From NCBI RefSeq assembly GCF_003865135.1, contig NZ_BHZC01000001.1, forward strand, positions 8,928,001 to 8,992,000: 64,000 nucleotides of DNA, in the 5' to 3' direction. Shown here in pieces: positions 29,623 to 49,555 of the stretch. Both the position numbers and the translations under genes were made by a program. The notes under the pieces were generated by a model. It did not search any database and was not told the DNA's origin. It saw only the letters and a list, made by a program, of their open reading frames with translations. The stretch comes from Streptomyces chrestomyceticus JCM 4735. GTDB lineage: Bacteria; Actinomycetota; Actinomycetes; Streptomycetales; Streptomycetaceae. Within the stretch, counting starts at the first letter, position 1; each line of letters opens with the position of its first letter.

Positions 29623-30429
29623 ATGGTGCGACTCTGTGGTGTCCGGCCGCTGGTGGGGCGGGTCGTGCGGCAGGTGGTGCGGGTCAATGTGCTGGATCTC
29701 GCCACCCGGCTGGCGGCGCAGGCGTTTCTGGCCGCGTTGCCGATGCTCATCGCCGTCTCGTCCTTCTGCCCGCATGCGGTACGGCAGGAGCTGCTGAGTT
29801 CGCTGCGTTCCGTGTTCGGGGCGGACAACCCGCTGCGCGGTCAGGTCGAGGCGGCTTACGGGTACCGGGAGCAGGTGTCGCACAGTTGGGGCGCGGTCGG
29901 TGTGCTGGTCGCCCTGGTGTCCGCCACGGCCTTCACCCGGGTGCTCCAGCGGGTGTGCGAACGGTCCTGGCGCCTGCCGCATTCGGGGGCGCGGATCGTG
30001 GCGTGGCGCTGGGCGTTGTGGCTCGTGGTCTGGGTGGTGATGCTGGTGTTCCAGGGGATGATCCATCGTGCCTTCGGCGCGGGGCCCGTTCTCGGCGTGT
30101 CCTTGCAACTCGTGTGCTCCGTGCTGATGTGGTGGTGGACCCAGCATCTGCTGCTCGCCGGGCGGCTGCCCTGGATGCCGCTGCTGCCGGGGGCGTTGCT
30201 GACCGGTGCGGGAGTGGTGACGTTCTCCCTGCTCTCGGGGCTCTGGCTGCCGCGGACGCTGACCCGGAGCGTCGAGCGGTACGGGCCGCTCGGCACCGTC
30301 TTCACGCTGCTGTCCTGGCTGATCCTCTTCTTCGCCACCGTCGTGCTCGGCATCGCCGTCGGACAGGTGCTCGCCCGCACCGAGGCCGTCCGGCGCCGGC
30401 TGAGGCTGCCGGACGTCCCGTCAGACTGA
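29623..30429 (+). CDS. YihY/BrkB-like inner membrane protein
   Basis: 268 residues with about six hydrophobic segments. The N-terminal RQVVRVNVLDLATRLAAQAFLAALPMLIAVSS resembles the first helix pair of the YihY/virulence factor BrkB family, and the last segment ends in GIAVGQVLARTEAVR. The function of the family is unknown. GGGAGG about 9 bp upstream supports the ATG at 29623. Its 3' end overlaps the convergent DUF2252 gene by 9 bp. Confidence 0.75.
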   Translation: MVRLCGVRPLVGRVVRQVVRVNVLDLATRLAAQAFLAALPMLIAVSSFCPHAVRQELLSSLRSVFGADNPLRGQVEAAYGYREQVSHSWGAVGVLVALVSATAFTRVLQRVCERSWRLPHSGARIVAWRWALWLVVWVVMLVFQGMIHRAFGAGPVLGVSLQLVCSVLMWWWTQHLLLAGRLPWMPLLPGALLTGAGVVTFSLLSGLWLPRTLTRSVERYGPLGTVFTLLSWLILFFATVVLGIAVGQVLARTEAVRRRLRLPDVPSD

Positions 30430-31827: not shown

Positions 31828-31886
31828 GGCGCCTCCTTCCTGCCGGACACGAGGCACGAATGTCGGCCCGCGCGGCCGGTTCGTCA

Positions 31887-31903
31887 TCACCCCGGCGGTG
31901 TGA
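31887..31903. promoter_or_regulatory. 17-bp palindrome, site 1 (DUF2252 promoter)
   Basis: TCACC-N7-TGTGA, one mismatch from the local consensus TCACC-N7-GGTGA. It lies 60 bp upstream of the DUF2252 start. Confidence 0.6.
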
Positions 31904-32003
31904 GGCGGGGGGAGAGGGGACGGGGAGGGGGTGGGGCAGGGGGGAGGTTCGTGGTGGTTGGGGCGGTGTTGGTCCGACGGTTGTCCGGCCCGGCCGGTGC
32001 GGG

Positions 32004-32020
32004 TCCCCTGGCCCGGGTGA
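32004..32020. promoter_or_regulatory. 17-bp palindrome, site 2 (DAGK-like promoter)
   Basis: TCCCC-N7-GGTGA, one mismatch from TCACC-N7-GGTGA. It lies 35 bp upstream of the diacylglycerol-kinase-like gene. Confidence 0.55.
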
Positions 32021-32054
32021 TGCCCGTACGGCCGGGCCGGCGCACGGTGGCGGC

Positions 32055-33389
32055 ATGGAAGCGACCATGCGGAAACAGCGGTGGCTGGCGCGCGCGTCCC
32101 TGGCGGCCGCCGTGGCGGCGGTGCTGGTACTGGGCGTGTTCGCGGGGGTGCGCACCTTCGCCCTGGTGGGCGTCGGACTCCTCGGGCTGGCGGTCACCGC
32201 CGCCGCGGTCTGGTGGACCCTGAGCCGGCGAGGCGTTCTGCGCGTCCTCGCCTTCCTGCTGGCCCTGGCCGCTCCGGCCTGGGTCCTCCTGGAGTACACC
32301 GGCGCCCACCTGGCCTGGGTCGCCGCCCTGTCCGTGGGGCTGTGGCTGGCCGCCGTCGGCGCGGGCCGGGCCGCCCTCGTCCTGCACACCAGGCCGGTCC
32401 CGATGCCCGAACGGCCGGCGCCGGAGACCCGCCACCCCGTACTGATCATGAATCCGCGCTCGGGCGGCGGCAAGGTGGACCGGTTCGGGCTGGGCGAGAA
32501 GGCCGCGGCCCTGGGGGCGGAGGTGCTGCTCCTGGAAGGGCCGGGGGAGACCGACGTGGCCGAGCTCGCCCGCAAGGCGGCGGCCGGGGGCGCCGACCTG
32601 CTCGGCGTCGCGGGCGGGGACGGCACACAGGCCCTGGTCGCCGATGTCGCGGCCGCTCTCGACCTGCCCTTCCTGGTGATCCCGGCCGGTACGCGCAACC
32701 ACTTCGCGCTGGACCTGGGCCTGGACCGGGAGGACCCGTCGAAGGCCCTGGACGCCCTGCACGACGGCGTGGAACTCCGTGTCGACCTCGGCCGGGCCGC
32801 GGGCCGGCCCTTCGTCAACAACGTGTCGTTCGGCGCCTACGCCGAGGTGGTGCAGAGCCCCGCGTACCGCGACGGCAAGACCCGGACCACGCTGGACCTG
32901 CTGCCCGACCTGCTCGTGGGCCACCGGGGCGGCCGGCTCACCGCACAGGCCGGGGAGCACACCTTCCGCGGGCCGCAGGCTCTGCTGGTGAGCAACAACC
33001 CGTACGGCACGGGCGACATCGCGGGGCTGGGGCGCCGGGCGCGCCTGGACGGCGGCGTGCTGGGCTGCGTCGGCGTCGAGGTGAGCGGCGCCGCACACGC
33101 CGCCGGCCTGGTACGGGGGAGGTGGGCCGCCGGTCTGACGCGGGTGACGGCCACGCACGTCGTCGTCGACGCCGATCAGGAGCGGATCGCGGTCGGCGTC
33201 GACGGAGAGGCGCTGCGGCTGCGCGTACCGGTGCACTGCGACATCCGGCCGCTGGCCCTGCGGGTGGTCGTGCCCCGGCGGCGGCCGGGCGTGCGCCTGG
33301 CCCGGCCGCCGCTGGACTGGCGCCTGCTCGCGAGGCTGGGGCTGGGACGGGGGCCGGCGCGGAACTCGCGCGAAACGCTGCCGCGCTGA
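32055..33389 (+). CDS. Diacylglycerol/lipid kinase-family protein with N-terminal membrane domain
   Basis: 444 residues. Three or four hydrophobic segments occupy residues 12-110. The rest is a DAGK catalytic domain: nucleotide-binding MNPRSGGGK, GVAGGDGTQALVADV (the conserved GGDGT), IPAGTRNHFALDLGL and a C-terminal VDGEALRLRVPV. Such enzymes phosphorylate diacylglycerol or related lipids at the membrane. Two nearby in-frame ATGs (32055, 32067) are possible starts. A copy of the regional palindrome lies 35 bp before the start. Confidence 0.85.
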   Translation: MEATMRKQRWLARASLAAAVAAVLVLGVFAGVRTFALVGVGLLGLAVTAAAVWWTLSRRGVLRVLAFLLALAAPAWVLLEYTGAHLAWVAALSVGLWLAAVGAGRAALVLHTRPVPMPERPAPETRHPVLIMNPRSGGGKVDRFGLGEKAAALGAEVLLLEGPGETDVAELARKAAAGGADLLGVAGGDGTQALVADVAAALDLPFLVIPAGTRNHFALDLGLDREDPSKALDALHDGVELRVDLGRAAGRPFVNNVSFGAYAEVVQSPAYRDGKTRTTLDLLPDLLVGHRGGRLTAQAGEHTFRGPQALLVSNNPYGTGDIAGLGRRARLDGGVLGCVGVEVSGAAHAAGLVRGRWAAGLTRVTATHVVVDADQERIAVGVDGEALRLRVPVHCDIRPLALRVVVPRRRPGVRLARPPLDWRLLARLGLGRGPARNSRETLPR

Positions 33390-33407
33390 GCTACCGGCTG
33401 AACAGGA

Positions 33408-33868
33408 CTACAGCGGCGCGTTGTAGACCTTGTGCGCCTCCCGGTGGCCGTACGTGGCCAGGGACCAGATGACCAGGACGTCGAGCGCGATGATGATCGC
33501 CGACCACACGGGGTAGTACGGCGTGAAGAAGAAGTTCTCCAGCGCGCTGAACACCGCGACCCCGATGCCGACGGCACGCGCCCAGGTGCGGCCCTTGAAG
33601 AGGTTGAACGCGGCCGCGAAGACGATGATGCCGGAGAGCAACTGGAGCCAGCCCCACCCGTTGATGCTGAAGTCGTACGCGTAGTTCTGCTGGGCCCGGT
33701 AGAAGTTGTGGTCGATGATCGCGGCGAGTCCCGCGATCGCGTGGTAGGCCCGATGACGGCCAGGATGCACACGGCGAACACGACGCCGCCCAGCGCGACC
33801 GGGCGGATCCGGGGTTCCTGGGCCGGTGTGCCCGGCCGGCTCTGCTCTGCCGAAGTCTGCTCAGTCAT
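33408..33868 (-). pseudogene. DUF7144-type membrane protein, frameshifted
   Basis: The start MTEQTSAEQSRPGTPAQEPR, with GAGGAGG upstream, runs into a first membrane helix ending FAVCILAVIG. It then leaves frame at 33747-33751, and the rest of the protein (YHAIAGLAAIIDH to the end VYNAPL, with three more helices and the SINGWGWLQLLSG signature) continues in another frame. Adding one G in the GGG/CCC run restores a normal protein of about 150 residues. It is either a recent mutation or a sequencing error. An intact paralogue lies at 46407-46829. Confidence 0.75.
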
Positions 33869-33921
33869 GGGGACCTCCTCCTCGGTGGGCCGGAGCATGC
33901 CCGAGCGGCCCCGCACCCGGA

Positions 33922-33938
33922 TCACCCGCGGCGGATGA
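33922..33938. promoter_or_regulatory. 17-bp palindrome, site 3 (DUF7144 promoter)
   Basis: TCACC-N7-GATGA, one mismatch. It lies 54 bp upstream of the frameshifted DUF7144 gene and 24 bp from site 4. Confidence 0.6.
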
Positions 33939-33962
33939 GACCGGGCGGACACCGGCGCGCCG

Positions 33963-33979
33963 TCACCCTCCCGAGGTGA
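33963..33979. promoter_or_regulatory. 17-bp palindrome, site 4
   Basis: TCACC-N7-GGTGA, exact. It lies 65 bp upstream of the plus-strand gene at 34044 in a divergent region shared with DUF7144. Confidence 0.7.
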
Positions 33980-34043
33980 GGCCGTCCCGCGCGGACCGGC
34001 GAGAATGGCAGGGAGGCCAAGCCGCCGCAGCGGAGGTGACTCC

Positions 34044-34337
34044 ATGGGCGCACAGGCGGGTGCGGGGCCCGAACGAGCGGGCGTGCCGTCCGGCGGCGGT
34101 GCTTTCGAGATCCGGGTCCGAGGCAGGGTCGGTGCTTCCCTCACCTCTGCCTTCGGCGAGCTGACGGTCCGGCTGCGTCCGGCCGAGACGGTGCTGTACG
34201 GGGCGGAGCTCGACCAGGCCGCGCTGTACGGCATCCTCGACCGTATCCAGGCACTGGGACTGGAGCTGCTGGAGGTGCGCCGGCTGCCCGGAACGGCCGG
34301 GGCCGGCGGGCCGGACACGCGCGCCGAAGGGCCGTAA
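34044..34337 (+). CDS. Small protein of unknown function (BON/sensor-like strand pattern)
   Basis: 97 residues. After a Gly/Ala-rich start it has FEIRVRGRVGASLTSAFGELTVRLRPAETVLYGAELDQ in pieces of alternating strands, then a helix (LYGILDRIQALGLELLEVRRL). Similar short proteins occur across Streptomyces without assigned function. CGGAGG lies 7 bp before the ATG. It is preceded by an exact copy of the regional palindrome and followed 70 bp later by a LuxR-type regulator on the same strand. Confidence 0.7.
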   Translation: MGAQAGAGPERAGVPSGGGAFEIRVRGRVGASLTSAFGELTVRLRPAETVLYGAELDQAALYGILDRIQALGLELLEVRRLPGTAGAGGPDTRAEGP

Positions 34338-34407
34338 GCCCTCTTCCGGCACCGCCGGGTGCCACGCGACGCTGGGTGGGTACCGCCTGCCGCCGGGAGG
34401 TGAGGGC

Positions 34408-34890
34408 ATGCCCGCCACGCTCCGTACCGCGCGAAGAGTCCGCAGGACTGCCGGGCCGGGAGACGGCGGCCGGGCGGCTGCCCTGCGCGGACGATTACGG
34501 GACCTGGGCCAGGACGCCGGGACGGCGGACCGGGCCGTGACGGCCTGCCTGGTGTGGCTGGCCGACCTCCTCGTGGAGATCGGGGAAGGGCTGGACGATC
34601 AGCGGAGCGCGGCGGCGCTGGTGGACGAGGCGGCGGCCGTGCTGGCCTCGACGCCCCGGCCGGACCGGGGCGCCCGGCCCCCGGTGGCGCTGCCCGAGCC
34701 GCTGACGGCGCGTGAACTGACCGTGCTGCGCGCGCTGCGGGAGGAGGTGTCGCTGCGCTGCATCGCCGAGGATCTCTTCGTGTCGCACAACACCGTAAAG
34801 ACTCACGCGCGCGCGGTGTACCGCAAACTCGGCGCCCACTCCCGGACCGAGGCGCTGCACCGGGCCCGGGAGCGAGGGCTCATCCAGTAA
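34408..34890 (+). CDS. LuxR-type regulator (short, C-terminal HTH)
   Basis: 160 residues. The first 90 are helical without a receiver domain. Residues 93-155 form a LuxR/GerE helix-turn-helix (LTARELTVLRALREEVSLRCIAEDLFV, then HNTVKTHARAVYRKLG). GGGAGG lies close upstream. It resembles the C-terminal region of MalT-type regulators and converges with a full-length one, so it may be a truncated relative. It is a candidate regulator for the palindromes in this block, but without direct evidence. Confidence 0.82.
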   Translation: MPATLRTARRVRRTAGPGDGGRAAALRGRLRDLGQDAGTADRAVTACLVWLADLLVEIGEGLDDQRSAAALVDEAAAVLASTPRPDRGARPPVALPEPLTARELTVLRALREEVSLRCIAEDLFVSHNTVKTHARAVYRKLGAHSRTEALHRARERGLIQ

Positions 34891-34915
34891 GCCGTAGCCG
34901 GCAGATCGGGAGGCG

Positions 34916-37180
34916 TCACAGCAAGTCCAGTTCACGGGCCCGCCGCACCGCCGCCGACCGCCGGGTCACCGCGAGCTTGCGGTAGACGCTCTTCAGATGC
35001 GTCTTGACGGTGTTGACCGACAGGTACAGGTCCGCGGCGATCTCCTCGGTGGTCATCATCTGCGCGAGGCGGCCGAGCACCTCCCGCTCCCGCGTGCTGA
35101 GCCGCTCGACCGGGTGCGGAGCCACGAGGGGCGGCTCGGGCCGGGCCAGGACGCGGGTACGCGGACCGCCGGGCGGGCCGAGCACGGCGGTACACCCCGG
35201 CTCCATCGTCCGCAGCAGTTCCGCGGGCAGCCGGCAGCCGGCCAGGACGTCGCCGATGCGGGCGGCGGACGGCCCGCCCTGCTCCGCCGCCTCGGTGAGC
35301 CCCGCCACCAGGGAGCAGATCTCCGTGACGAACGGGTCGGGTGCGTGGCGCAGTACGGCACGCGCGTGCCCGATCTCCCGGCGGGCCTGCGCGGGTTCGC
35401 CGCGCGCGAGGCCGGTCCAGGCGCGTACGACGTGCAGCGAGGACCGGGAGCGGTCCGTCGGGGTCCAGGTCGGCAGGGGCGGCTGACAGGCGTGGGTGAC
35501 GAATTCGCCGGCGGCGCGGAAGCGGCCGCGCAACGTCTCCAGCAGGGCGAGATCGACGAGACAGTCCCGGCGCAGTACGCCGTTCCCGGCGGCGCACGCG
35601 GCTTTGAGGCCGGCGGTCAGGGAGACCGAGGCGGCCCGCAGGCTGCCGTCGCGCAACTGGCCGTGCCCGCGGATCGCCAGGGCGAGCGCCGGGATCTCCG
35701 GGTGCGCGGCCAGCGTCGCCCGCGTCAGCCGTGGGCACAACGACTCCGTCTCGGCCGCCGCGGACCGGGCGGCCTCCGGAGCCCGGGAGCGGTCCCGGGC
35801 CATGCGGATCACGGCGTGCGTCAGTCGGCAGCGGGTGATGCGGTCCTCCTGGTCCGCGGGCAGTTCCCCGACGAGCCGTCCGGCGCCGGCCAGCGAGTCC
35901 GCGCAGACCCGTTCGTCGCCCTGGGCCAGGGCCGCGGCGGCGGTGACGAGCGTGGACTCGGGCCCGTCCGCCGCCCCGGCCTCGGGCCGGCGGACCAGGT
36001 CGTCCGGCAGGCGGTCCCCGGTCAGCCCCAGGATCTGGCCGATCGCCAGCCGGTGGACGATCAGCCGGTCGGCGCGCCGGTGGTCGCCGGCCGCCGACCA
36101 GTGCCGTACCGCGTCGGCGAGCAGCCCGTGGTCGCCCAGCCAGGCGGCGGCCCGGCGGTGCAGTTCGGGCACCAGCGCCGGCGTCTCGTGCCGCAGGCGC
36201 ATCCGCAGCACGTCGGCGAACATCCGGTGGCAGCGGTACCAGCCGTGCCCGGTGGGCTGGAGGAAGGAGTTCTCCCGTACCAGTGCCGCGAAGTGGCTGC
36301 CCGCCTCCTCGCCGGCGAGTTCGGTGGCCAGTTCGGCGTTCATCTGCTCCAGGACGCTCGTCGTCAGCAGCAACCGCCGCATTCCCGGGGGCTGTACGTC
36401 CAGGACTTCCTCCACGAGGTAGCTGACCACCGCCTCGTCGTCCCCGGCGAACTGCGCCACGAACTTCTCCGGGGAGGGCTGCTTCTCCATGGACATGGCG
36501 GCCAGGCGCAGGCCGGCCGCCCACCCGTCCGCACGTTCCCGCAGGGCGCCCACCACCGGCTTGGCCAGCTCGACGCCGTGCTGGGCGAGCAGCGCGGCCG
36601 TCTCCCGGTCGTCGAACGCGAGATCGCGGGTGCGCAGCTCGGTGAGTTCGCCGGACAGCCGGAACCGGTGCAGATGCAGCGGCGGGTCGCGGCGCGCGAG
36701 CACCACCAGGCGCAGCGCGGGAGCCGACTGCTTCAGCAGCCCCAGTATGCCCTCGGCGGTCGGCGAGCCGGGCTCCGTACGGAAGTCGTCCAGGACGAGG
36801 ACCACCGGGGCACGCCGTGCGGCCGGCCCGGACACCGGGCCGGCCACGGACGGCGGGCCGCCGTCGGCCGCCACGAACGGCGGTACGTCCGCGCCGACCG
36901 CGTGCAGCGCGCCGGCCACCCGTGACCAGAACATGTCCGGCTGCTCGTCCCGGCCGTCACAGGTCACCCAGGCCACCGGGCCCGGCGGCCGGCCGGTGTG
37001 CGCCCACTCCACGGCGAGCGCCGTCTTCCCGGCGCCCACCGGGCCGACGATCACGGTCAGCGGCCCGCAGGTGCCCCAGGAGAGCCGGTCCGTCAGCCGA
37101 GGTCTGGGGACCAGCCACCGAGGCAGCGCGGGCACGGTGGCCGGGGGCCCGTCGCGCTGCTCCCTCGGACCCGTGTCCAT
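34916..37180 (-). CDS. Large LuxR-family (MalT-like) ATP-dependent regulator
   Basis: 754 residues. The N-terminal STAND-type ATPase carries Walker A VGPVGAGKTALAVEW (near 40) and a Walker B-like VVLVLDDF. The middle is helical, TPR-like and Ala/Leu rich. The C-terminal 60 residues are a LuxR HTH (LSTREREVLGRLAQMMTTEE, then SVNTVKTHLKSVYRKL). MalT-type proteins oligomerise on an inducer and activate transcription. ATG 37180 is chosen because GAGGTG sits 9 bp before it; GTG 37189 lies inside that ribosome site. A weak copy of the palindrome is at 37270-37286. Confidence 0.87.
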   Translation of the reverse strand: MDTGPREQRDGPPATVPALPRWLVPRPRLTDRLSWGTCGPLTVIVGPVGAGKTALAVEWAHTGRPPGPVAWVTCDGRDEQPDMFWSRVAGALHAVGADVPPFVAADGGPPSVAGPVSGPAARRAPVVLVLDDFRTEPGSPTAEGILGLLKQSAPALRLVVLARRDPPLHLHRFRLSGELTELRTRDLAFDDRETAALLAQHGVELAKPVVGALRERADGWAAGLRLAAMSMEKQPSPEKFVAQFAGDDEAVVSYLVEEVLDVQPPGMRRLLLTTSVLEQMNAELATELAGEEAGSHFAALVRENSFLQPTGHGWYRCHRMFADVLRMRLRHETPALVPELHRRAAAWLGDHGLLADAVRHWSAAGDHRRADRLIVHRLAIGQILGLTGDRLPDDLVRRPEAGAADGPESTLVTAAAALAQGDERVCADSLAGAGRLVGELPADQEDRITRCRLTHAVIRMARDRSRAPEAARSAAAETESLCPRLTRATLAAHPEIPALALAIRGHGQLRDGSLRAASVSLTAGLKAACAAGNGVLRRDCLVDLALLETLRGRFRAAGEFVTHACQPPLPTWTPTDRSRSSLHVVRAWTGLARGEPAQARREIGHARAVLRHAPDPFVTEICSLVAGLTEAAEQGGPSAARIGDVLAGCRLPAELLRTMEPGCTAVLGPPGGPRTRVLARPEPPLVAPHPVERLSTREREVLGRLAQMMTTEEIAADLYLSVNTVKTHLKSVYRKLAVTRRSAAVRRARELDLL

Positions 37181-37304
37181 GGGCGGCACCTCGCTCTCGG
37201 AGCGGGAGGGTGCTGCTCAGGCAAGTGTGGGACGGGCCCGGCGGTACGGGCAGCGCGACGGACGCCGTTTCACCCGGGTGAGGTTTGCCGCCCGGACGCC
37301 ACAC

Positions 37305-37790
37305 TCAGACGGAGTGCAGCGCCGCGATCAGCTCTTCCTCGCGGTCCTTCGTCAGCGACGTACGGAGCACGTGCGGGGAGAAGGGGCGCAGCGCCTCGCG
37401 CACCCGGTCCGGCGTGGAGCGGCGCACCAGGGCGAACACCGCGGCGCTGCCCGGCTCCAGGGTGCCCGCGATCTCCTTGACGAAGGCGTCGTTGATGCCC
37501 ACGTCGCTGAGCTTGCCGGCGACCGCGCCGGTGGCCGCGCCCACCGCGGCGCCGAACACCGGCATCAGGAACAGCATCCCGAGCAGGGTGCCCCACAGGG
37601 CGCCGCCGGCCGCACCGCTCGCGGTGGGGTTGTAGGACTGCCGGACATGGATCTTGCCGTCCATGGTGCGCCAGGCCAGGGCCGCGTCCTCCAGGTCGAG
37701 CAGTTCCTGGTGGGACAGGTCCTTGGCGAGCCGCAGCACCGCGTCCGCCTTCTCCCGGTCCGAGAACCCGAGTACGACGAGATCGGCCAT
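37305..37790 (-). CDS. DUF1269 family membrane-associated protein
   Basis: 161 residues. The start MADLVVLGFSDREKADAVL and the central Gly/Ala-rich hydrophobic segment (ASGAAGGALWGTLLGMLFLM to AAVGAATGAVAGK) are typical of DUF1269, with a short alpha/beta tail ending LRTSLTKDREEELIAAL. These small proteins accompany stress genes in actinomycetes; the biochemistry is unknown. GGAGG lies 5 bp before the ATG. It is divergent from the membrane protein at 37971 across a palindrome site. Confidence 0.85.
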   Translation of the reverse strand: MADLVVLGFSDREKADAVLRLAKDLSHQELLDLEDAALAWRTMDGKIHVRQSYNPTASGAAGGALWGTLLGMLFLMPVFGAAVGAATGAVAGKLSDVGINDAFVKEIAGTLEPGSAAVFALVRRSTPDRVREALRPFSPHVLRTSLTKDREEELIAALHSV

Positions 37791-37903
37791 CGTTGCCTCC
37801 TGGTGAACGGCCGGTCGTCCGGCCTGATGTGGGACGGGACAGCCGCCGGCCGGTCCGTGCGCCGGGGCCGCCACCATCCAGCCGGAGCCCGCCGTCCGCC
37901 GCG

Positions 37904-37920
37904 TCACCCACGACAGGTGA
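37904..37920. promoter_or_regulatory. 17-bp palindrome, site 5
   Basis: TCACC-N7-GGTGA, exact. It lies 51 bp upstream of the 37971 membrane protein gene and 114 bp upstream of the divergent DUF1269 gene. Confidence 0.7.
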
Positions 37921-37970
37921 GGGCCCGGCGGCACGGGCTCCGGGACGGTGGGCGGCGGAGGTGCGGTGCC

Positions 37971-39418
37971 ATGACCCACGAGGGAACGGCGGACGACGGC
38001 CCGGCCGGCGCGGGCTCCGCGCCCGCCGGCGAACTGGAGCGGCTGCGGGCGGAGGTCCGGGAGCTGCGGGCCCGCGCCGGAACGCGGGAGCGGCGGCGGG
38101 CCAGGCTGCTGGCCCTCCGGCGCCTCGTCGCGGCGGTGGCGATCGCGCTGGTGGCCGTCCTCACGGTCACCTCGGTCGTCGGGGTGTGGGGCGCGCGCAC
38201 CGCGCTCGACACGGACCGCTGGGTGGCCACGGTGGGACGGCTGCCCGAGGACCCGGCCGTGAAAAAGGCCGTCTCCGCCTACCTGACGGACGAGATCTTC
38301 GACCAGTTGGACGTCGAGCGGCGGCTGTCCGAGGCGCTGCCGCCCCGGGCGTCGTTCGTCGCGGGACCGGTCACCGGCGCGGTGCACGGCTACCTGCGCG
38401 ACACCGTCACCAAGCTGCTCGGCACGGAACAGTTCCAGGACCTGTGGCGCTCCGCCAACCGCTTCGCGCACGACCGGATCACCGCCGTGCTGGAGGGGCG
38501 CAGCGAGGGCGTGCGGGTGCAGGGCGACACGGTCACCCTCAATCTGCTGCCGCTGGTCAACAACCTCCTCAACGCCCTGGAGGACCGGCTCCCCACCCTG
38601 TTCGGCAAGCGGCTCGACCTGCCCACCCTGTCGTCCGGAGAGGTCCCGCCCGGGCTGCGCGACCGGATCGGGAAGGCACTCGGTGTGTCCCTGCCCGCCG
38701 ACTTCGCGCAGATCAAGCTCTACGACCGCGAGACGCTGGGGCAGGTGCAGCAGGCCGTGGTGCTGTGCAAGCGCGGGCTGGTGGGCCTGGTGCTCGCCGT
38801 GCCGCTCCTGCTCGGCCTCGCCCTGTGGGTCTCCCCGAACCGCCGGCGCACCCTGCTCCAGTTGGGCCTGTGGCTGGTGGTCAGCGTCACCGCGCTCTCC
38901 GCCGTCCTGCGGGCGGTACGGGACCAGCTCCTCGCCCAGGTGCCGTCCGGCGTCTACCGGGACGGGGTGCGGAACGCGCTGTGGACGGTCTTCACGACGC
39001 TGCGTGACCGAGGCGACCTGCTGCTGTGGCTCGGTGTCCTCCTGGCCGTCGTGATGTACCTGGTAGGCCCCGGACGGCTGCCCGTCGGCCTGCGCCACCA
39101 GACGTCCCGGGGCGCTCGGGCCACCGGCCGGTTCGCCGTGCGCGCCGGTCGGAAGGTGTCCACGGGGAGCGGAGCACACGCGTGGGTACGCGACCACGCC
39201 GACGTGCTCCGGGTCGCCGGCGTGGTCGTCGCCGCCCTGGTCGCCCTGCTGCTGTCGTCCTGGGCGAGCCTCTTCGTCATCGCGGTGGTGCTGGCGGCGT
39301 ACGAGGCCGCGGTAACGCTCGCGCTGCGCGACAGTTCCTCACCCCGGTCAGGTGAGGCGGCCCCCGGGGTGGCCGCCGAGCCTGGTGCCGGGGGAGCCCG
39401 CGAGGCAGGGAGGCAGGC

Positions 39419-39422
<4 letters not shown>
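37971..39422 (+). CDS. Multi-pass membrane protein of unknown function
   Basis: 483 residues. A charged helical N-terminus (ELERLRAEVRELRARAGTRE) precedes a first membrane helix (about 46-68), then an outside domain of about 200 residues (DTDRWVATVGRLPEDPAV and onward), then further helices near 270-290, 300-320, 352-370 and 425-455. Similar proteins are common in Streptomyces without assigned function. It is the first gene of an apparent operon with two glycoside hydrolases: its stop overlaps the GH63-like start (ATGA). The promoter region carries an exact palindrome. Confidence 0.78.
39339..39355. promoter_or_regulatory. 17-bp palindrome, site 6
   Basis: TCACC-N7-GGTGA, exact. It lies inside the 3' end of the membrane protein gene, 64 bp before the GH63-like start, so an internal promoter is possible. 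Confidence 0.6.
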
Positions 39423-42105
<2,683 letters not shown>

Positions 42106-42109
<4 letters not shown>

Positions 42110-43590
42110 CCGAGCTGCCGGCACAGCCCGTCGTGTACGAGGTCAACACCCGGGTGTGGCTGCGCGAGGTGGGGCGCCGCACCGGCGGCCCGGCCGGGCT
42201 CGGCGACGTGCCCAAGGACGCGTGGGACGAGATCACCCCGCACGGCATCGACGCCGTCTGGCTCATGGGGGTGTGGGAGCGCAGCCCGCGGGGCCGCGGC
42301 ATCGCCCTGTGGGACCCGTCCCTGCGTACCGCGTTCGACCGGGCCGTACCGGGCGTCGAGGAGGGCGACATCGCCGGTTCGCCGTACTGCATCCGGCGCT
42401 ACGAGGTCGACGCGGCGCTCGGCGGTGCCGAAGGGCTGGCCGCCGCGCGCGCCGAACTCGACAGCCGCGGCATCGGGCTGCTGCTCGACTACGTCCCCAA
42501 CCACGTCGCCCCGGACAGCCCCTGGGTGACCGAGCACCCCGAGTACTTCGTACGGGGCACCGTCGACGAGGTACGGCGCGATCCGGCCGCCTACCTCGAC
42601 ACCGGGACCGCGGTCCTCGCCCGCGGCCGTGACCCCTTCTTCCCGCCCTGGCCGGACGTGGTGCAGCTCAACGCCTTTGAACCGGCTGTGCGCCGGGCGA
42701 CGACGGACGTGCTCGGCCGCATCGGGCAGGTCTGCGACGGCGTGCGCTGCGACATGGCGATGCTGCTGATGAACGACATCTTCGCCCGCACCTGGGGGCA
42801 GCGCGCGGGAAGCCCGCCACCGGACGACTTCTGGCCCACGGTCATCGGCGGAGTACGGGAGCGGCACCCCGGCATGACGTTCGTCGCCGAGGCGTACTGG
42901 GACCTCGAATGGGACCTGCAGCAGCAGGGGTTCGACTTCTGCTACGACAAGCGTCTCTACGACCGGGTCCTGAACGAGGGCCCCGAGTCGGTGCGGCAGC
43001 ACCTGACGGCCGACGAGACGTACCAGCGCAAGCTCGTACGGTTCCTGGAGAACCACGACGAGCCCCGGGCCGCGGAGACCCTGCACCCGGCCAAGGAGCG
43101 CGCGGCGGCGGTCCTGATCGCCACGCTGCCGGGCGCGACGCTGTGGCACGAAGGCCAGTTCACCGGGCGCCGCACCCATCTGCCGGTCTTCCTGGACCGG
43201 CGCCCGGACGAGCCCGCTGACACCGCGCTGCGGGCCTTCCACGAGAGGCTGCTGGCCGGCGTGCACCGCAGCGGGATGCGGACCGGCCGCTGGCAGCTCC
43301 TGGAGTGCGCGGGCTGGCCCGACAACGCGTCCGCCGCCAACCTGCTCGCCTGGTGCTGGACAGGCCCCGCCGGACGCTTCCTGACGGTGCTGAACCTCTC
43401 GGACCAGCCGGCCCAGGGACGCGTCCGGCTGCCGTGGCCGGAGCTGGACCCCGGCGCATGGGTGCTGACCGGGCTGCTGGACGGCGAGCGGTACACCCGC
43501 TCCGGGACCGAGCTGACCGGCCCCGGCCTGTTCGTCGGTCTGGACGCCTGGGGCACGCACGTCCTGGCCGTCGGCCGGGACCGGGACTGA
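42106..43590 (+). CDS. GH13 alpha-amylase-family enzyme
   Basis: 494 residues. The conserved regions are visible: DYVPNHV (129-134), GVRCDMAM with nucleophile Asp216, FVAEAYWD with acid Glu262, and ENHDEPRA with Asp318. There is no signal peptide. It resembles intracellular alpha-glucan or trehalose-type enzymes more than secreted amylases; Arg-to-Cys-Asp (RCD) at the nucleophile replaces the usual RxD with a Cys between. It starts inside the stop of the GH63-like gene, so the two hydrolases probably act on the same glucan or disaccharide. Confidence 0.87.
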
Positions 43591-43634
43591 ACGGGGCTGT
43601 CGCGCCGCACGTCTGAGCACCGTACGCCTGCCAC

Positions 43635-43671
43635 CGGCCCGCCGCGGGCTCAGTCCGCCCGCGGCGGGCCG
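43635..43671. terminator. 14-bp stem bidirectional terminator overlapping the sulP 3' end
   Basis: CGGCCCGCCGCGGG, a 9-nt loop, then the exact complement at 43658-43671. It lies between the convergent GH13 and SulP genes, and its right arm is within the last codons of sulP. Confidence 0.75.
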
Positions 43672-45464
43672 CCGTCCGTACCGGGCCCGGAAGGCGGCCC
43701 GGCCGCCGTCCACACCGCGTCGCTCCCGGCGCGGAACGCGGTGACGGCGGACTCGACGGTGGGAAAGAAGCGGTCGCCGCCGAAGGAGCGGGTCAGCCCG
43801 TAACGCCTGAGGCTGGCCAGCACCGGGTCCTTCAGCTCGGCGAACACCAGGCGGATGTGTCGCGCTTCGAGCCCCTTGCGGAGTTCCTCCAGCACGTCGG
43901 CCGCGGTGGTGTCCACGTCGGTCACCGGCTCGGCGGCGACCAGGACCCACCGGGGCGGCGGATCGCCGTGGGTCAGGCGCAGCACCTCGTCGCGGAAGGC
44001 CTTGGCGTTGGCGAAGAACAACGGCGCGTCGAAGCGGTGGATCACCAGGCCGGGCAGGCGTTCGGCCTCCGGGTAGGAGCGGACGTCGTGGTAGCCCTCC
44101 AGCCCCGGCACCCGCCCCAGCACCGTGTTGTACGGCCACCACGCGCGCCGGAAGACGTTGAGGATCGACAGGCCGACCGCGACCGCGATGCCGGGCAGCA
44201 CACCGAGCAGTGCCACCCCGAGGAAGGCCGCGACCGACAGCAGGAACTCCGTCTTGCGCCGCCGCCACAGCCGCGCCGCTCCGGTGAGATCGGCCAGGGA
44301 CAGCGCCGCCGTGATGACCACCGCGGCCAGCGCGGGCTGGGGCAGGCTCCGGAACAGGCCGGGGAACAGCACCAGCATCACGATGATCAGTACCGCTCCG
44401 ACGACTCCGGTGAGCTGGGTCCGGGCGCCCGCGCGCTCGGCCACCGCGGTCCGCGAGCCGCTCGTGCTGACGGGGAAGCCCTGGAACAGCCCGGCGGCCA
44501 GGTTCGCGGCCCCGATCGCGCGCATCTCCTGGTCGCCCTGGACCTCCTGCCCGGTACGGGCCGCGAACGCCGACGCGTTGGAGATGGTGTCGGCCAGGGA
44601 CACCAGGGCGATGCCCACCGCCCCGGCGCACAGGGGAGCGAGGTCGTCCCACGCGAGGTGCGGGACGGTCAGGGGCGGGAAGCCCGTGGGCAGCGTGCCC
44701 ACCAGACCGACGCCGCGTGCGGCCAGGTCGAACAGGGGCGTCGCGGCCATCGCCAGCAGCACCATGACGAGCACCGCGGGCACCTTCGGCAGCCACCGCT
44801 GGAGCACCAGGATCAGTACGACCCCGCCCACGCCGACCGCCACGGCGGCGGGCACCGCCTTCCCGTCGGCCAGGCCACGGACGAAACCCGACGTCTCGCC
44901 GAGCAGCCCGTCGGCGTCCGTGGAGAAGCCGCACAGCTTCGGCAACTGACCGATCAGAATGGTCAGCGCCAGCCCGTTCATGTAGCCGATCATGGTGGGC
45001 TTGGAGATCAGATCGGCGATGAAGCCCAGCTTCGCCACGCTCGCCAGGACCATGACCGCACCGACCAGCAGCGCCAGCACCGAGGCCAGCGCCACCGCCC
45101 GCCCGCTGTCACCCCCGGCGGCGGCCAGCGGCAGCACCGTCGCCGCGATCATCGGGCCGAGGGAGGAGTCCGGGCCCAGCACCAGGATCCGGGACGGGCC
45201 GAAGACCGCATACGCCAGCAGGCACAGGACGGACGTGTACAGGCCGTTGATCGCGGGCAGCCCCGCCAGTTCCGCGTACGCCATGCCCTGCGGCACCAGC
45301 AGCGTGGTCAGCACGACACCGGCGACGAGGTCCTTGACGAGCCACTGCCGCCGGTAGCCCGAGAACGTACGGAGGCCGGGTGCCGCTCCGCGGGCCTTCG
45401 CCAGGGCCCGGGACCCCCGGCCCACCGTCGTCCGGCGGCCCCCTCCGCCGTCGGCACCGGTCAT
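43650..45464 (-). CDS. SulP-family anion permease with STAS domain
   Basis: 604 residues. The N-terminal part has about ten to twelve membrane helices with the family's GLYTSVLCLLAYAVFGPSRI and GVVGAVLIIVMLVLFPGLF stretches. The C-terminal 120 residues form a STAS domain (LPGLVIHRFDAPLFFANAK to FAELKDPVLASLRRYGL). SulP proteins move sulfate, bicarbonate or organic anions; the substrate here is unknown. The ATG overlaps the PPK2 stop by 4 bp (ATGA), so both are made together, an unusual pairing. Confidence 0.87.
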   Translation of the reverse strand: MTGADGGGGRRTTVGRGSRALAKARGAAPGLRTFSGYRRQWLVKDLVAGVVLTTLLVPQGMAYAELAGLPAINGLYTSVLCLLAYAVFGPSRILVLGPDSSLGPMIAATVLPLAAAGGDSGRAVALASVLALLVGAVMVLASVAKLGFIADLISKPTMIGYMNGLALTILIGQLPKLCGFSTDADGLLGETSGFVRGLADGKAVPAAVAVGVGGVVLILVLQRWLPKVPAVLVMVLLAMAATPLFDLAARGVGLVGTLPTGFPPLTVPHLAWDDLAPLCAGAVGIALVSLADTISNASAFAARTGQEVQGDQEMRAIGAANLAAGLFQGFPVSTSGSRTAVAERAGARTQLTGVVGAVLIIVMLVLFPGLFRSLPQPALAAVVITAALSLADLTGAARLWRRRKTEFLLSVAAFLGVALLGVLPGIAVAVGLSILNVFRRAWWPYNTVLGRVPGLEGYHDVRSYPEAERLPGLVIHRFDAPLFFANAKAFRDEVLRLTHGDPPPRWVLVAAEPVTDVDTTAADVLEELRKGLEARHIRLVFAELKDPVLASLRRYGLTRSFGGDRFFPTVESAVTAFRAGSDAVWTAAGPPSGPGTDGGPPRAD

Positions 45465-46393
45465 CGCGGCCGCCCGCGTTCCGCCTCCAATGCCTTCCGG
45501 GCCTCGGCCAGTTCGCGCCGTGCCTGCTCGCCGACGTCCGGGTACTGCGGATCGATACCGGCCAGGACGTGGGCGAGCACCGCGGCCGCGCAGATGCGCG
45601 CGAACCACTTGTGGTCGGCGGGCACGACGTACCACGGCGCCCAGCGGGTGCTGGTGGCGGAGAGCATGGCGGAGAACGCCCGCTGGTAGTCGTCCCACCG
45701 GGCGCGTTCGCGGGTGTCGGCCGCCGAGAACTTCCAGTTGCGCTCGGGGACGTCGATCCGCTGCAGGAACCGGCGCCGCTGTTCCTCCTTGGACAGGTTC
45801 AAGAACAGCTTCACGAGCCGGAAGCCGTTGTCGCTCAGGTACCGCTCCCAGTCGTTGATCTCCCGGAAGCGCCGGCGCCAGAGGTCCTGCCGCCGGCCCC
45901 GGCCCGGCAGCCGCTGCCGGTCGAGGAGTTCCGGGTGCACCCGCACCACCAGGACCTCCTCGTAGTGCGACCGGTTGAAGATCCCGATCTCCCCGCGCCG
46001 GGGCAGATGGCAGGCGTAGCGCCACAGGTAGTCGTGGTCGAGTTCCTCCGCGGACGGCTGTTTGAAGCCGACCACGTGCACGCCCTGCGGGTTCACGCCC
46101 GTCATCACGTGCCGGATCGTGCCGTCCTTGCCGCCCGCGTCCAGCGCCTGGAGGTACACCAGCACCCCGTGGGTGCCCTGCGCGGCCAGCCGCCGCTGCT
46201 GGTCGGCCAGCAGGGCGACACCGGTCCGCAGCAGTTCCTCACCGTCGCGCTTGCGCCTGATACCCGCCTTGTGACCGGGGTCGAAGTCCTTGCCCAGATC
46301 GACCTCCGACCCCGGCTCCACCCGCAGGGGCGCGATGAATTGCGCGATCCGCCCGGCCCACTCGTCCGCCGTGCGCACCGCCCGGCCCGGCAC
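45461..46393 (-). CDS. ppk2: Polyphosphate kinase 2 (PPK2) family protein
   Basis: 310 residues. Walker A-like DAGGKDG is at 85-91, followed by the family's IRHVMTGVNPQGVHVVGFKQ, then RSHYEEVLVVRVHPE and NWKFSAADTRERARWDDY (lid and Walker B region). PPK2 enzymes transfer phosphate between polyphosphate and nucleotides, either NDP or NMP; this form resembles class III (AMP/ADP phosphorylation), but the class is not certain. GTG start with GGAG 8 bp upstream. It lies 13 bp after the DUF7144 gene and is coupled to sulP. Confidence 0.87.
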   Translation of the reverse strand: MPGRAVRTADEWAGRIAQFIAPLRVEPGSEVDLGKDFDPGHKAGIRRKRDGEELLRTGVALLADQQRRLAAQGTHGVLVYLQALDAGGKDGTIRHVMTGVNPQGVHVVGFKQPSAEELDHDYLWRYACHLPRRGEIGIFNRSHYEEVLVVRVHPELLDRQRLPGRGRRQDLWRRRFREINDWERYLSDNGFRLVKLFLNLSKEEQRRRFLQRIDVPERNWKFSAADTRERARWDDYQRAFSAMLSATSTRWAPWYVVPADHKWFARICAAAVLAHVLAGIDPQYPDVGEQARRELAEARKALEAERGRPR

Positions 46394-46406
46394 GGAACCG
46401 CTCCGG

Positions 46407-46829
46407 CTAATCGTTGAAGGTGTCCCGGCGGACCACGCACAGGGCCCAGATGGTGGCCCCGTAGAGCGCGATCAGGGTGATCGACCAGACCGGATAGTAG
46501 GGAATGGTGAGGAAGTTTATGATGATCAGCAGCGCCGCGATGCCGATCGCGAGGACCCGGGCCCAGGTGGCCGCCGTGAACAGACCGAGGCTCACGACGA
46601 CGGCGACCGCCCCGAAGGCCAGGTGGATCCATCCCCAACTGGTCAGGTCGAACTTGAACACATAGTTGGGGGTGTTGAGGAAGACCTCGTTCTCGGCGAT
46701 GCCCATGATGCCCCGGAAGAGGTCGAGCACACCGGAGATGAACAGCATCACGGCAGCGAAGATGGTCAGGCCGCTCGCGGCGGCCGTGACTCCTGCCGAG
46801 CGGTGGTGCGGGCTGGTCGTGGTGGCCAT
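46407..46829 (-). CDS. DUF7144 family membrane protein
   Basis: 140 residues with four membrane helices (about 14-34, 58-80, 86-106 and 112-130) and the family signature FDLTSWGWIHLAFGAV. The function is unknown. It is the first gene of the DUF7144-PPK2-SulP operon. Just upstream lies a very strong palindrome that contains an exact copy of the regional motif. The paralogue at 33408-33868 is frameshifted. Confidence 0.85.
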   Translation of the reverse strand: MATTTSPHHRSAGVTAAASGLTIFAAVMLFISGVLDLFRGIMGIAENEVFLNTPNYVFKFDLTSWGWIHLAFGAVAVVVSLGLFTAATWARVLAIGIAALLIIINFLTIPYYPVWSITLIALYGATIWALCVVRRDTFND

Positions 46830-46901
46830 GACAGGCCCTCCGTCTCCGAGGCGGGTGCGGATTGCCCCGCGTCGGCGCCGAGGGTGCCCCGGAGGCCGGG
46901 G

Positions 46902-46934
46902 GCGCGTCGTCACCCCCGGCGGGTGACGACGCGC
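46902..46934. promoter_or_regulatory. Perfect 14-bp-arm palindrome containing 17-bp site 7
   Basis: GCGCGTCGTCACCC, 5-nt loop, exact complement. Its centre is TCACC-N7-GGTGA (46910-46926). It lies between divergent operons, so it is not a terminator. A weaker copy, TCACC-N7-GACGA, follows at 46937-46953. The distances are 81 bp to the DUF7144 start and 90 bp to the MFS start. Confidence 0.75.
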
Positions 46935-47015
46935 GATCACCCGGCCGGGACGATGAACGGCGCCCGGCGGACGGCCCGTGCCGCCCGCCGGGCAGCAGCG
47001 ATCGGAGGCCAGACG

Positions 47016-48425
47016 ATGACCGTACCGACCGGCCCCACCGGACCCGGCACGGGGACCCGCGGACCCGCGCCGAGCCCACCGCGCCAGGTGCTGGTACCGC
47101 TCGCGCTCGCCCAGTTCATCTGCAGCTTCGCCGGCTCCAACATGAACGTGATGATCAACGACATCAGCAAGGACCTCGACACCACCGTGCAGGGAGTACA
47201 ACTCGCGATCACCATCTTCCTGCTGGTCATGGCGGCACTGATGATCCCCGGCGGCAAGCTGACCGACCGGTTCGGCCGCAAACGGTGCCTGGTGGCCGGA
47301 CTGACCGTCTACGGCGTCGGCGCCCTGCTCAGCGCGGCCGCGCCCGGCCTCGGCGTACTGATCCTCGGCAACTCCATCCTCGAAGGCGTGGGTACGGCCC
47401 TGCTCATCCCGCCGGTCTACGTCCTCACCACGCTCCTCTTCACGGACATCACCGCCCGCGCCCGCGCGTTCGGCGTGATCATGGCGATGGGCGGCGTCGG
47501 CGCCGCCGCCGGACCGCTGATCGGCGGGCTCATCACCACGGGGCTGAGCTGGCGGGCGGCCTTCCTCTTCCAGGCGCTGGTGGTCGCGGTGATCGTCGTA
47601 CTGAGCCGCCGGATCGCGGACCCGCTGCCCCCGGAGCCCACCCGGCCCTTCGACACCGGCGGGGCGGTCCTGTCCGCCGTCGGCCTGGTCCTCGTCGTCA
47701 CCGGCATCCTCGCCGCCGACGACAACGGCTGGCTGATGACGGGACTGCTCCTGCTCGGCGCCCTCGTCCTGGCCGGGTTCTTCCGGTGGATACGGGCGCG
47801 GGAGCGCGCGGGCCGCGAACCGCTGCTGTCCACCGGCCTGTTCCGGGACCGCACGTCCAACCTCGGCCTGCTCACGCAGAACCTCCAGTGGCTGATCCTC
47901 ATGGGGGTGTCGTTCGTGGTGGCCGCCTACCTCCAGGTCGTCCGCGGCTACGACGCCGTCCGCACCGGAGTGATCTTCACGGCGGCCACCGCGGGCATCC
48001 TCGCGGCCTCGCTGGCCGCCGAGCGCTTCGCGAAGCGGCGCACCCCGCGGACCCTGGTCATGACCGGCTTCGCCGTGACGGTCGCCGGCATCGGCACGCT
48101 CCTCGCCATGGCGGGCGGCTCCCCGAGCGCCTGGGCCACCACCCCCGGACTGCTCATGATCGGCCTGGGGCTCGGGGTGATGCTGACCCCGTCGGTGAAC
48201 GTCGTGCAGTCCAGCTTCCCCGAGGACCAGCAGGGCGAGATCTCCGGCCTGTCGCGCAGCGTGTCCAACCTCGGCTCCTCACTGGGCACCGCGGTCGCCG
48301 GCACCATCCTCGTCGCCGACCTGGCCTTCGGCTCCTACGCCGCCGCGCTGATCGTGCTGGCCGCCGTCGGGTGCGGTGGCTTCGTCGCCGCCACGCTGCT
48401 CCCTCGGCAGCGGGCGCCGCGCTGA
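47016..48425 (+). CDS. MFS (DHA2-type) transporter
   Basis: 469 residues, about 14 hydrophobic segments. The early DRFGRKRCLVAGL loop and GRxxxG-like patterns fit the drug:H+ antiporter-2 family. GGAGG lies 7-8 bp before the ATG. Its promoter region shares the strong palindrome with the DUF7144-PPK2-SulP operon, so the two units may be co-regulated. The last 147 bp overlap, antisense, the extended 3' end of the RDD gene. Confidence 0.85.
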   Translation: MTVPTGPTGPGTGTRGPAPSPPRQVLVPLALAQFICSFAGSNMNVMINDISKDLDTTVQGVQLAITIFLLVMAALMIPGGKLTDRFGRKRCLVAGLTVYGVGALLSAAAPGLGVLILGNSILEGVGTALLIPPVYVLTTLLFTDITARARAFGVIMAMGGVGAAAGPLIGGLITTGLSWRAAFLFQALVVAVIVVLSRRIADPLPPEPTRPFDTGGAVLSAVGLVLVVTGILAADDNGWLMTGLLLLGALVLAGFFRWIRARERAGREPLLSTGLFRDRTSNLGLLTQNLQWLILMGVSFVVAAYLQVVRGYDAVRTGVIFTAATAGILAASLAAERFAKRRTPRTLVMTGFAVTVAGIGTLLAMAGGSPSAWATTPGLLMIGLGLGVMLTPSVNVVQSSFPEDQQGEISGLSRSVSNLGSSLGTAVAGTILVADLAFGSYAAALIVLAAVGCGGFVAATLLPRQRAPR

Positions 48426-48926
48426 CCCGGCGACTCCCGTCCGCCGGACGGCCCGTCCGCCGTACCGGCCGTGCCAGTCGTACACGACCGCGCTGCGTAC
48501 GACGAGATCGGCCACGGACGCGTTCCGCCTGCTCGGCAACGCCCAGAGCAGCCCCAGCGGCAGCGCGACACACAGGACGGCCCGGAGCAGGGCACGGCCC
48601 GCCCGGAGCCGCCGGCCCGAGCGGCGCACCACCCGCAGCCCCATCAGCAGGCCGCCCACGGTCCGGCCCGTCACCGACCAGCCCACCGCCAGGTACCCGA
48701 CGGCGAGACAGCCCCCGAAGACTCCGGTGACCTGGTCCGACGGCCTCGGTACCGCGAACGGCGGCCCGGACACGAGGAACCGGACGGCTCCGAGGGCCAG
48801 TCCGGTCAGCACGGCGATGCCCAGCACGACCAGGGCGTCCGCGACGGCCGCCAGGGCGCGGGAGACCGGCCCCGCGGTGCGGCCTTGCAGGTGGGAGGGG
48901 CTGATGGCGGGCGAGGGTGGCGTCAC
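48279..48926 (-). CDS. RDD family membrane protein with long antisense-overlapping tail
   Basis: 215 residues. The RDD domain spans residues 20-150 with three hydrophobic segments and the GRTVGGLLMGLRVVRRSG and NASVADLVVRSAVVYDWHGR patterns. The remaining 60 residues are hydrophilic and lie fully antisense to the end of the MFS gene. Related proteins normally end soon after the YDWHGR motif, so this tail may have arisen by loss of the original stop. GTG start overlapping the stop of the preceding gene. Function unknown. Confidence 0.8.
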   Translation of the reverse strand: MTPPSPAISPSHLQGRTAGPVSRALAAVADALVVLGIAVLTGLALGAVRFLVSGPPFAVPRPSDQVTGVFGGCLAVGYLAVGWSVTGRTVGGLLMGLRVVRRSGRRLRAGRALLRAVLCVALPLGLLWALPSRRNASVADLVVRSAVVYDWHGRYGGRAVRRTGVAGSARRPLPREQRGGDEATAPDGGQHDQRGGVGAEGQVGDEDGAGDRGAQ

Positions 48927-49504
48927 GGGGCGGTCCGGCGGGCCGGCGCGCCGGACCCGGAGTCCTCGACGGTGCCGCCGTTCCGGGACGGTGGCGACGA
49001 CGGAACGCTACCGTTCCGTCGCAACAGCCGGTCGGTGAAGGCATCCACCAGTCGGTCGGCCCGAGCGCTCCGCAGCCGTACGGCGTCCAGCGCGTCGCCG
49101 GTCATGCTGCCGCCCGTCTCCCGGACGATCCTGCCGATGTCGATCTCTTCGAGCACCTGCCGGGCGAGACCGACCGGATCGGCCCGCACCAGCAGGGCGT
49201 CGATGTCGACCCGGCGCGCGACCCGGTCGACGTCCACCCGGTCGGCGACGCGGTTCACCTCCACCCGGTCGGCCACCTTGTTCACGTCCACCCGCGCCAC
49301 CAGGGCGTCCAGGTCGAGCTGGGCGACGACCGCGGCGACGGCCCGCCGCAGCGCGGCCCGCCGGGCGCGGTCGATCCCGTCACCGATCCGGACGGCCGCC
49401 GTGCCCACCGCCGTACCCACGGCGACCACCGCCCCCAGGGCCAGCCGTGGACCGAGCAACAGGACAGCTCCCGGCGCGCCGCCGACGCCGTGGTGTGCAC
49501 CCAT
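48923..49504 (-). CDS. Hypothetical protein with five 9-residue repeats
   Basis: About 193 residues from the ATG (a GTG seven codons earlier is possible). A hydrophobic segment near 12-35 precedes five tandem 9-mers, LDLDALVAR, VDVNKVADR, VEVNRVADR, VDVDRVARR and VDIDALLVR, an amphipathic pattern. The rest is Ser/Gly rich. No family is certain, but repeats like these occur in Streptomyces membrane-associated proteins. The stop overlaps the RDD start (GTGA), forming an operon. A palindrome with one mismatch is 35 bp upstream of the ATG. Confidence 0.65.
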   Translation of the reverse strand: MGAHHGVGGAPGAVLLLGPRLALGAVVAVGTAVGTAAVRIGDGIDRARRAALRRAVAAVVAQLDLDALVARVDVNKVADRVEVNRVADRVDVDRVARRVDIDALLVRADPVGLARQVLEEIDIGRIVRETGGSMTGDALDAVRLRSARADRLVDAFTDRLLRRNGSVPSSPPSRNGGTVEDSGSGAPARRTAP

Positions 49505-49538
49505 GGCCGCATGGCAACGCCGCACGGCGGACCCCGCT

Positions 49539-49555
49539 TCATCCGCCGCGGGTGA
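49539..49555. promoter_or_regulatory. 17-bp palindrome, site 8
   Basis: TCATC-N7-GGTGA, one mismatch. It lies 35 bp upstream of the ATG of the repeat protein-RDD operon. Confidence 0.55.

Follow-up and report, generated by a model that had tools for sequence, protein, structure and literature searches.

A block of about 18 kb (positions 31887-49555) in a 64,000-nucleotide stretch of the Streptomyces chrestomyceticus JCM 4735 genome, hereafter the window, carries repeated copies of the 17-bp palindrome TCACCC-N5-GGGTGA (the N5 box, or simply the box) ahead of genes that surround a large, putatively ATP-binding regulator of the LuxR type (LAL, encoded at 34916-37180). On the sequence evidence collected here, it is probable that the box is the operator of this LAL and that the LAL activates the genes behind it as a regulon. 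The evidence comes from the clustering of the strong boxes in the block, from their presence around LAL homologues in other actinobacteria, and from the constant distance that separates the box from a weak -10 hexamer.

Box copies and their linkage to the LAL

Within the genome (9.38 Mb), the motif was counted either as exact TCACC-N7-GGTGA or as TCACCC-N5-GGGTGA with at most one mismatch. The exact core was found 17 times, with four copies in the window, and the reversed-pattern control gave 2; the 13 copies lying in the other ~9.31 Mb correspond to about 0.09 per 64 kb, so that the four seen here are far above chance, as claimed in a preliminary description of the window in which 0.05 copies had been estimated. 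The longer form was found 28 times genome-wide, seven of them within the block (reversed-pattern control, 6). When two mismatches were allowed, the window was not enriched (36 copies vs 35.25 expected). The clustering is real for strong sites and uninformative for weak ones.

The box also accompanies the LAL in other genomes. Around 24 distant LALs (36-43% identity, L034-L057), 24 boxes were found in 110 kb, distributed over 18 of the 24 loci; 0.33 would be expected at the rate of the S. chrestomyceticus genome, and the reversed control around the same LALs gave 0. All of the 20 LAL regions fetched at lengths up to 20 kb (L058-L077) contained at least one box, in many cases ahead of genes from the same families. 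When named genomes were scanned and the best 80 LAL loci kept, 73 of the 80 had a box, in eight named genera; this set shares strains with the other locus set, so the counts are not independent. The boxed loci belonged to Streptomyces (55/59), Actinomadura (5/7), Actinoplanes (4/4), Kutzneria (2/2), Kitasatospora (2/2), Streptosporangiaceae bins (1/2), and to Nonomuraea, Actinospica, Actinacidiphila and an actinomycete bin (1/1 each).

Streptomyces genomes with and without the regulator were then compared, taking as LAL-positive the 40 out of 101 with a homologue at E <= 1e-60, and as LAL-negative those with no LAL at this threshold. Exact boxes amounted to 2.80 per LAL-positive and 1.16 per LAL-negative genome (reversed controls 3 and 7 in total, respectively) and, among the matches listed, 25 of the 58 exact boxes of LAL-positive genomes were within 25 kb of the LAL, where 0.3 would be expected. 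Moreover, a -10 hexamer was present at 16 of 23 exact boxes examined in LAL-positive genomes vs 2 of 10 in LAL-negative ones. DUF7144 and DUF2252 genes are also found apart from a LAL, which provides a natural control. We used their 60 best-matching loci (30 each), scanning from -450 to +60: 7 of the 11 LAL-linked loci were boxed and none of the 49 unlinked ones, a zero valid for the immediate upstream region only, since the unlinked locus L134 contains an operon-like cluster with boxes farther upstream. The preservation of the box upstream of orthologues, which the preliminary description had named as a check, was found. Its proposal that a single dimeric regulator governs a local regulon has good support.

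Promoter geometry and spacer length

A -10 hexamer was scored as A at the second and T at the sixth place. Of the box orientations that look towards a plausible start codon (299), 153 carried this A...T pattern at offset 23 and a further 59 at offset 24 (212 in total), while the remaining 58 offsets averaged about 3; the 311 orientations without a plausible start gave a small peak, with 34 and 19 at the same two offsets. In 100 LAL loci, some of them from shared strains, 281 of 325 N5 boxes had the hexamer at 22-24 in either direction, compared with about 10% of random positions, and boxes with other spacers had it in 0-40% of cases (0/8 for a 4-bp spacer, N4). The share of N5 boxes with the hexamer drops with increasing mismatches (87/97 with none, 194/228 with one, 48/128 with two and 106/1037 with three), indicating that genuine sites become rare from about two mismatches on. 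When the surroundings of 79 boxes were scanned for TANNNT without regard to orientation, 2 matches were obtained in all; the usual -10 is here without the first T.

In the window, the hexamer is present for DUF2252, the lipid kinase, both DUF7144 genes, the small protein, the membrane protein, GH63 and the MFS transporter. All ten sites of the preliminary description were recovered with the positions and mismatch counts claimed and, as boxes preceding genes, the strong copies stood; the two-mismatch copies at 37270 and 46937 were discarded as likely chance matches, because they have no -10 hexamer of the kind found at most true sites and two-mismatch copies occur at chance frequency. An extra one-mismatch copy, absent from that description, is located beyond the block at 52521. 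The -10 test is no perfect filter, as the A...T hexamer was also found at a two-mismatch match within a gene (33654) and at 3 of 23 such matches outside the block.

The site thus lies at a fixed distance (gap of 22-23 nt) from a weak -10, as in class II activation; if the hexamer occupies -12 to -7, the centre of the box would fall near -43, the position of a class II activator. A fixed distance between box and -10-like hexamer might also be taken as a sign that an alternative sigma factor reads the box as the -35 element of its promoters. We consider this scarcely credible, since the gap is above the usual -35/-10 gap of 16-19, the box is palindromic with both halves conserved, and a single box (46910) can serve both directions. 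In the mechanism that we propose instead, two LuxR-type helix-turn-helix (HTH) domains of the LAL, with their invariant recognition segment, would bind the two half-sites; the box would stand in for the -35 element, with the weak -10 dependent on the activator, and the LAL, centred near -43, would touch RNA polymerase in the manner of class II activators. Activation may be turned on upon a cue by a switch gated by ATP and a ligand, which would reside, as it does in MalT, in the large N-terminal portion.

A closely similar published sequence is the Group I box of BldM in Streptomyces venezuelae, TCACcCgnncGgGTGA, footprinted and described, in the part of the source available, as a 16-bp site with a 4-bp spacer (PMC4125116). 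The two have in common their half-sites, TCACCC and GGGTGA, arranged as an inverted repeat, and a reader with an HTH of the LuxR/NarL type, a likeness that the preliminary description had missed. They differ in that the BldM box has a 4-bp spacer and is read by a developmental orphan response regulator, while the spacer here is 5 bp, which places these boxes outside Group I. The identity of the half-sites raises the alternative that BldM reads the box as a variant of its own site and that the block is a part of the developmental BldM regulon, which we judge quite unlikely on account of the spacer. Around 20 LALs (389 kb in all), 72 N5 boxes were counted vs 1 N4 box, with no other spacer (0-12) exceeding 10, and in the best 80 named loci 253 vs 7, the next highest of the spacers 0-10 being N0 with 50. 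A 205-kb 'far' set, no clean negative because it includes some LAL-linked loci, gave 13 N5 boxes, and no other spacer had more than 3. None of the 69 N4 boxes of the S. chrestomyceticus genome (at most one mismatch) lies in the window, hence none in the block, and the N4 boxes of LAL loci, as said, showed no -10 at 22-24. The N4 boxes of this genome were not confirmed as BldM targets, and neither whiB nor ssgR was found among ten proteins scanned, six of which adjoin N4 boxes.

Taking the two spacers together, we lean towards a view in which BldM uses N4 for development and the ligand-gated LAL family uses N5 for mostly uncharacterised membrane and envelope genes, as an old actinobacterial stress system of Streptomyces, Actinomadura, Actinoplanes, Kutzneria, Kitasatospora, Nonomuraea, Actinospica and Actinacidiphila that would be gathered round its regulator in the block. 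The one-base difference in spacer from the BldM box offers a clean test of how half-site spacing lets LuxR-type dimers keep their regulons apart, and it cautions that the spacer length should be held constant when genomes are searched for BldM sites.

The LAL and other candidate readers

The LAL of the block has 754 aa, within the size class of LAL regulators (about 700-1000 aa), and ends in a LuxR-type HTH (GerE, E 1.5e-14, residues 693-748). It scored 215.7 bits over residues 17-370 against the MalT model NF003420, whose cut-off is 537, so it is not a MalT equivalog. The sequence contains GPVGAGKT (P-loop) and VVLVLDD, candidate Walker motifs. The HTH segment S-N-T-V-K-T-H-L is invariant in 20 LALs whose overall identity to that of the window ranges from about 37 to 79%.

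MalT is likewise a large LuxR-type activator, ATP-binding as the LAL may be, and its box is given as GGA[TG]GA (available text of PMC9628970); GGGTGA is one base off GGATGA, which fits an HTH of the MalT type. The MalT sites are direct repeats in the portion of PMC6099782 at hand, while the box is an inverted repeat, and no maltose genes are present in the block. Among Streptomyces regulators of the same broad LAL family, SCO6993 protects short palindromes for which its authors could predict no consensus site (PMC9628970, as far as available), whereas in the accessible part of PMC3282765 no binding site was found described for SCO0877 and SCO7173; the described targets are antibiotic and phosphate genes (same sections of PMC9628970 and PMC3282765).

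The preliminary description had proposed as regulator one of the two LuxR-type genes inside the block, or a DevR/OsdR-type response regulator elsewhere. The first proposal is supported, and the evidence picks the large LAL over the small LuxR-type gene (34408-34890). It is very doubtful that the small protein, alone or with the LAL, reads the box. In its favour, its gene belongs to the block, where it follows the boxed small-protein gene, and its HTH is similar to the one in the LAL (NTVKTH). Against it, no more than 14 of 81 loci and 3 of 20 fetched regions yielded a member of its family, though gene calls may miss copies, compared with the 73 boxed loci among the best 80. As the main regulator it is unlikely, as a partner possible. 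Having a LAL-like HTH without the putative ATPase part, it could compete with the LAL or join it, as WhiI joins BldM (section of PMC4125116 available).

As to the second proposal, OsdR/DevR is similar in that stress-type genes are clustered round the regulator and the site is a 16-nt palindrome. It is a two-component regulator, and it was rejected as the reader because its half-site is AGGGCC instead of GGGTGA and the consensus published for OsdR, AGGGCCGATCGGCCCT, differs from the box (PMC5069765, in the part available). More generally, the box could be read by some other regulator, whose gene might be a neighbour of the LAL in part of the genomes or lie at another place, and the boxes present in genomes without a close LAL are in favour of it. 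We regard it as unlikely: the LAL is the sole family found in all 20 clustered LAL regions, and no other common family is DNA-binding by the labels available, several common families being without identification.

Some observations weigh against the assignment of the box to the LAL. The loci were picked by their LAL, so another LAL-linked gene could be the box reader. The 61 LAL-negative genomes hold 71 exact boxes vs 7 reversed ones (1.16 vs 0.11 each), and 7 of the best 80 LAL loci, some of them on short contigs, have no box at one mismatch. The LAL gene itself is boxed in just 15 of 83 cases, with no good box in the S. chrestomyceticus genome. Finally, Pfam detects the HTH alone in the LAL of the window, and AAA and TPR_MalT in two homologues.

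LAL regulators and palindromic LuxR-type sites are already known. A conserved predicted operator, a promoter geometry and a putative stress-type regulon for one LAL family appear to be new, as we did not find them in the open-licence literature, where we also found neither a pairing of the N5 box with a LAL nor a mention of DUF7144. In the cited literature, as far as available, LAL regulators come mostly from antibiotic clusters. This LAL family gains a predicted operator, geometry and target list, which makes its signal searchable with simple reporters, and DUF2252, DUF7144 and the small protein gain a lead to their function.

Genes and extent of the putative regulon

The features of the block are collected in Table 1.

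Table 1. Boxes and genes of the block (positions in the window)
Feature	Position	Strand	Remarks
DUF2252 gene, boxed	30421..31827	-	PF10009
Box for DUF2252	31887..31903	-	one mismatch; -10 GACATT at 31859-31864; orthologous boxes in loci L139, L140
Weaker box for lipid-kinase gene	32004..32020	+	-10 CACGGT at 32043-32048
DAGK-like lipid kinase gene, boxed	32055..33389	+	lipid-kinase models matched below cut-off
DUF7144a gene, boxed	33408..33868	-	PF23636; split over two frames in assembly (two-frame match)
Box for DUF7144a	33922..33938	-	one mismatch; -10 CATGCT at 33894-33899
Exact box for small-protein gene	33963..33979	+	-10 GAGAAT at 34001-34006
Small protein (97 aa) gene, boxed	34044..34337	+	conserved beside LAL; in 14/20 LAL regions by clustering
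Small LuxR-type protein (160 aa) gene	34408..34890	+	GerE domain
LAL regulator gene (754 aa, MalT-type, C-terminal LuxR HTH)	34916..37180	-	GerE; proposed reader of box
Exact box for membrane-protein gene	37904..37920	+	-10 GACGGT at 37944-37949
Membrane protein gene, boxed	37971..39422	+	open frame; homologues adjoin boxes in L059-L061
Exact box for GH63	39339..39355	+	-10 GAGCCT at 39378-39383
GH63-type gene, boxed	39419..42109	+	PF03200
GH13-type (alpha-amylase-type) gene after GH63	42106-43590		PF00128
PPK2-family polyphosphate kinase	45461-46393		TIGR03709, 356 bits; beside SulP gene
DUF7144b gene, boxed	46410..46829	-	PF23636; genome match G000:C1:8974425-8974766
Exact box between DUF7144b and MFS	46910..46926	both	-10 CACCCT at 46881-46886 (-), GACGAT at 46949-46954 (+)
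MFS transporter gene, boxed	47016..48425	+	PF07690
Repeat protein (48923-49504) and RDD protein (48279-48926) genes, probably boxed pair	48279..49504	-	PF06271 (RDD)
Probable box for repeat-protein/RDD pair	49539..49555	-	one mismatch; degenerate -10 TGCCAT, no A...T hexamer

The content of the putative regulon was counted over the best 80 named loci and the window, with a loose boxing rule and our own GC-frame gene calls. Boxes preceded 262 of 1416 genes, and 23 of the 45 families shown scored 0. The highest counts were those of a family of about 83 aa, taken to be the small protein (36/41), and of a family of about 167 aa which, by size and place and without a rescan, corresponds to PLDc_N/SHOCT proteins (33/45), together with DUF2252 (27/38), DUF7144 (24/49), GH63 (15/18), the lipid kinase (12/27) and MFS (8/25); the repeat protein was boxed in 3 of 5 cases, SulP in 2 of 13, GH13 in 0 of 9 and the small LuxR gene in 0 of 14. 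Further targets elsewhere are DUF308, PLDc_N/SHOCT proteins and Na/H exchangers. An envelope, osmotic or energy stress response is our guess from this gene list.

In S. chrestomyceticus the regulon looks local, judging from the sequence: in the genome scan, which the preliminary description had also named as a check, just 2 of the 31 box copies examined outside the window had a -10 in either direction, against about 10% of random positions, and a wide spread in this species was rejected. In other species the regulon is spread over several loci in some genomes. Of the 33 exact boxes listed there with no LAL inside 25 kb, 19 were covered by eighteen fetched regions, and 9 of the 18 regions had an exact box with the hexamer. 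Some of the regions contain the families known from the block: genome G026 has a cluster of DUF7144, membrane, small-protein and MFS genes, G084 has the lipid kinase, and G033 has both the lipid kinase and the repeat-RDD pair, though at that pair the hexamer points the opposite way.

Some features of the block deserve a comment. The box at 32004 has two mismatches to TCACCC-N5-GGGTGA and one to the shorter core. That at 37904 has no -10 in the direction of the DUF1269 gene, and that at 39339 lies within the last codons of the membrane-protein gene, 63 nt ahead of GH63. The box at 46910 is flanked by a -10 in each direction and can therefore serve DUF7144b as well as the MFS gene. The box at 49539 probably serves the repeat-protein/RDD pair; it recurs ahead of this pair in L058, there too without the A...T hexamer. 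No box was found upstream of the PPK2 gene. The block also encodes a DUF1269 protein and a SulP transporter.

The 97-aa small protein has no Pfam or NCBIfam match. Its predicted structure, of low confidence (pLDDT 68.5), has a beta-alpha-beta-beta-alpha-beta (ferredoxin-like) core with just weak ferredoxin/ACT-like structural matches (best E 0.025), and it is a possible partner of the LAL. The frame of DUF7144a breaks near 33749, since a homologue matches in one frame with its residues 1-40 and in another with 41-153; this may be either a real disruption or an assembly error. The repeat protein contains short tandem VDVDRVADRV-like repeats, matches no family, and is accompanied by an RDD gene wherever labelled (L058, L062, L273). 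Just past the block, at 49595-50905, lies a gene of the phytase family (PF02333).

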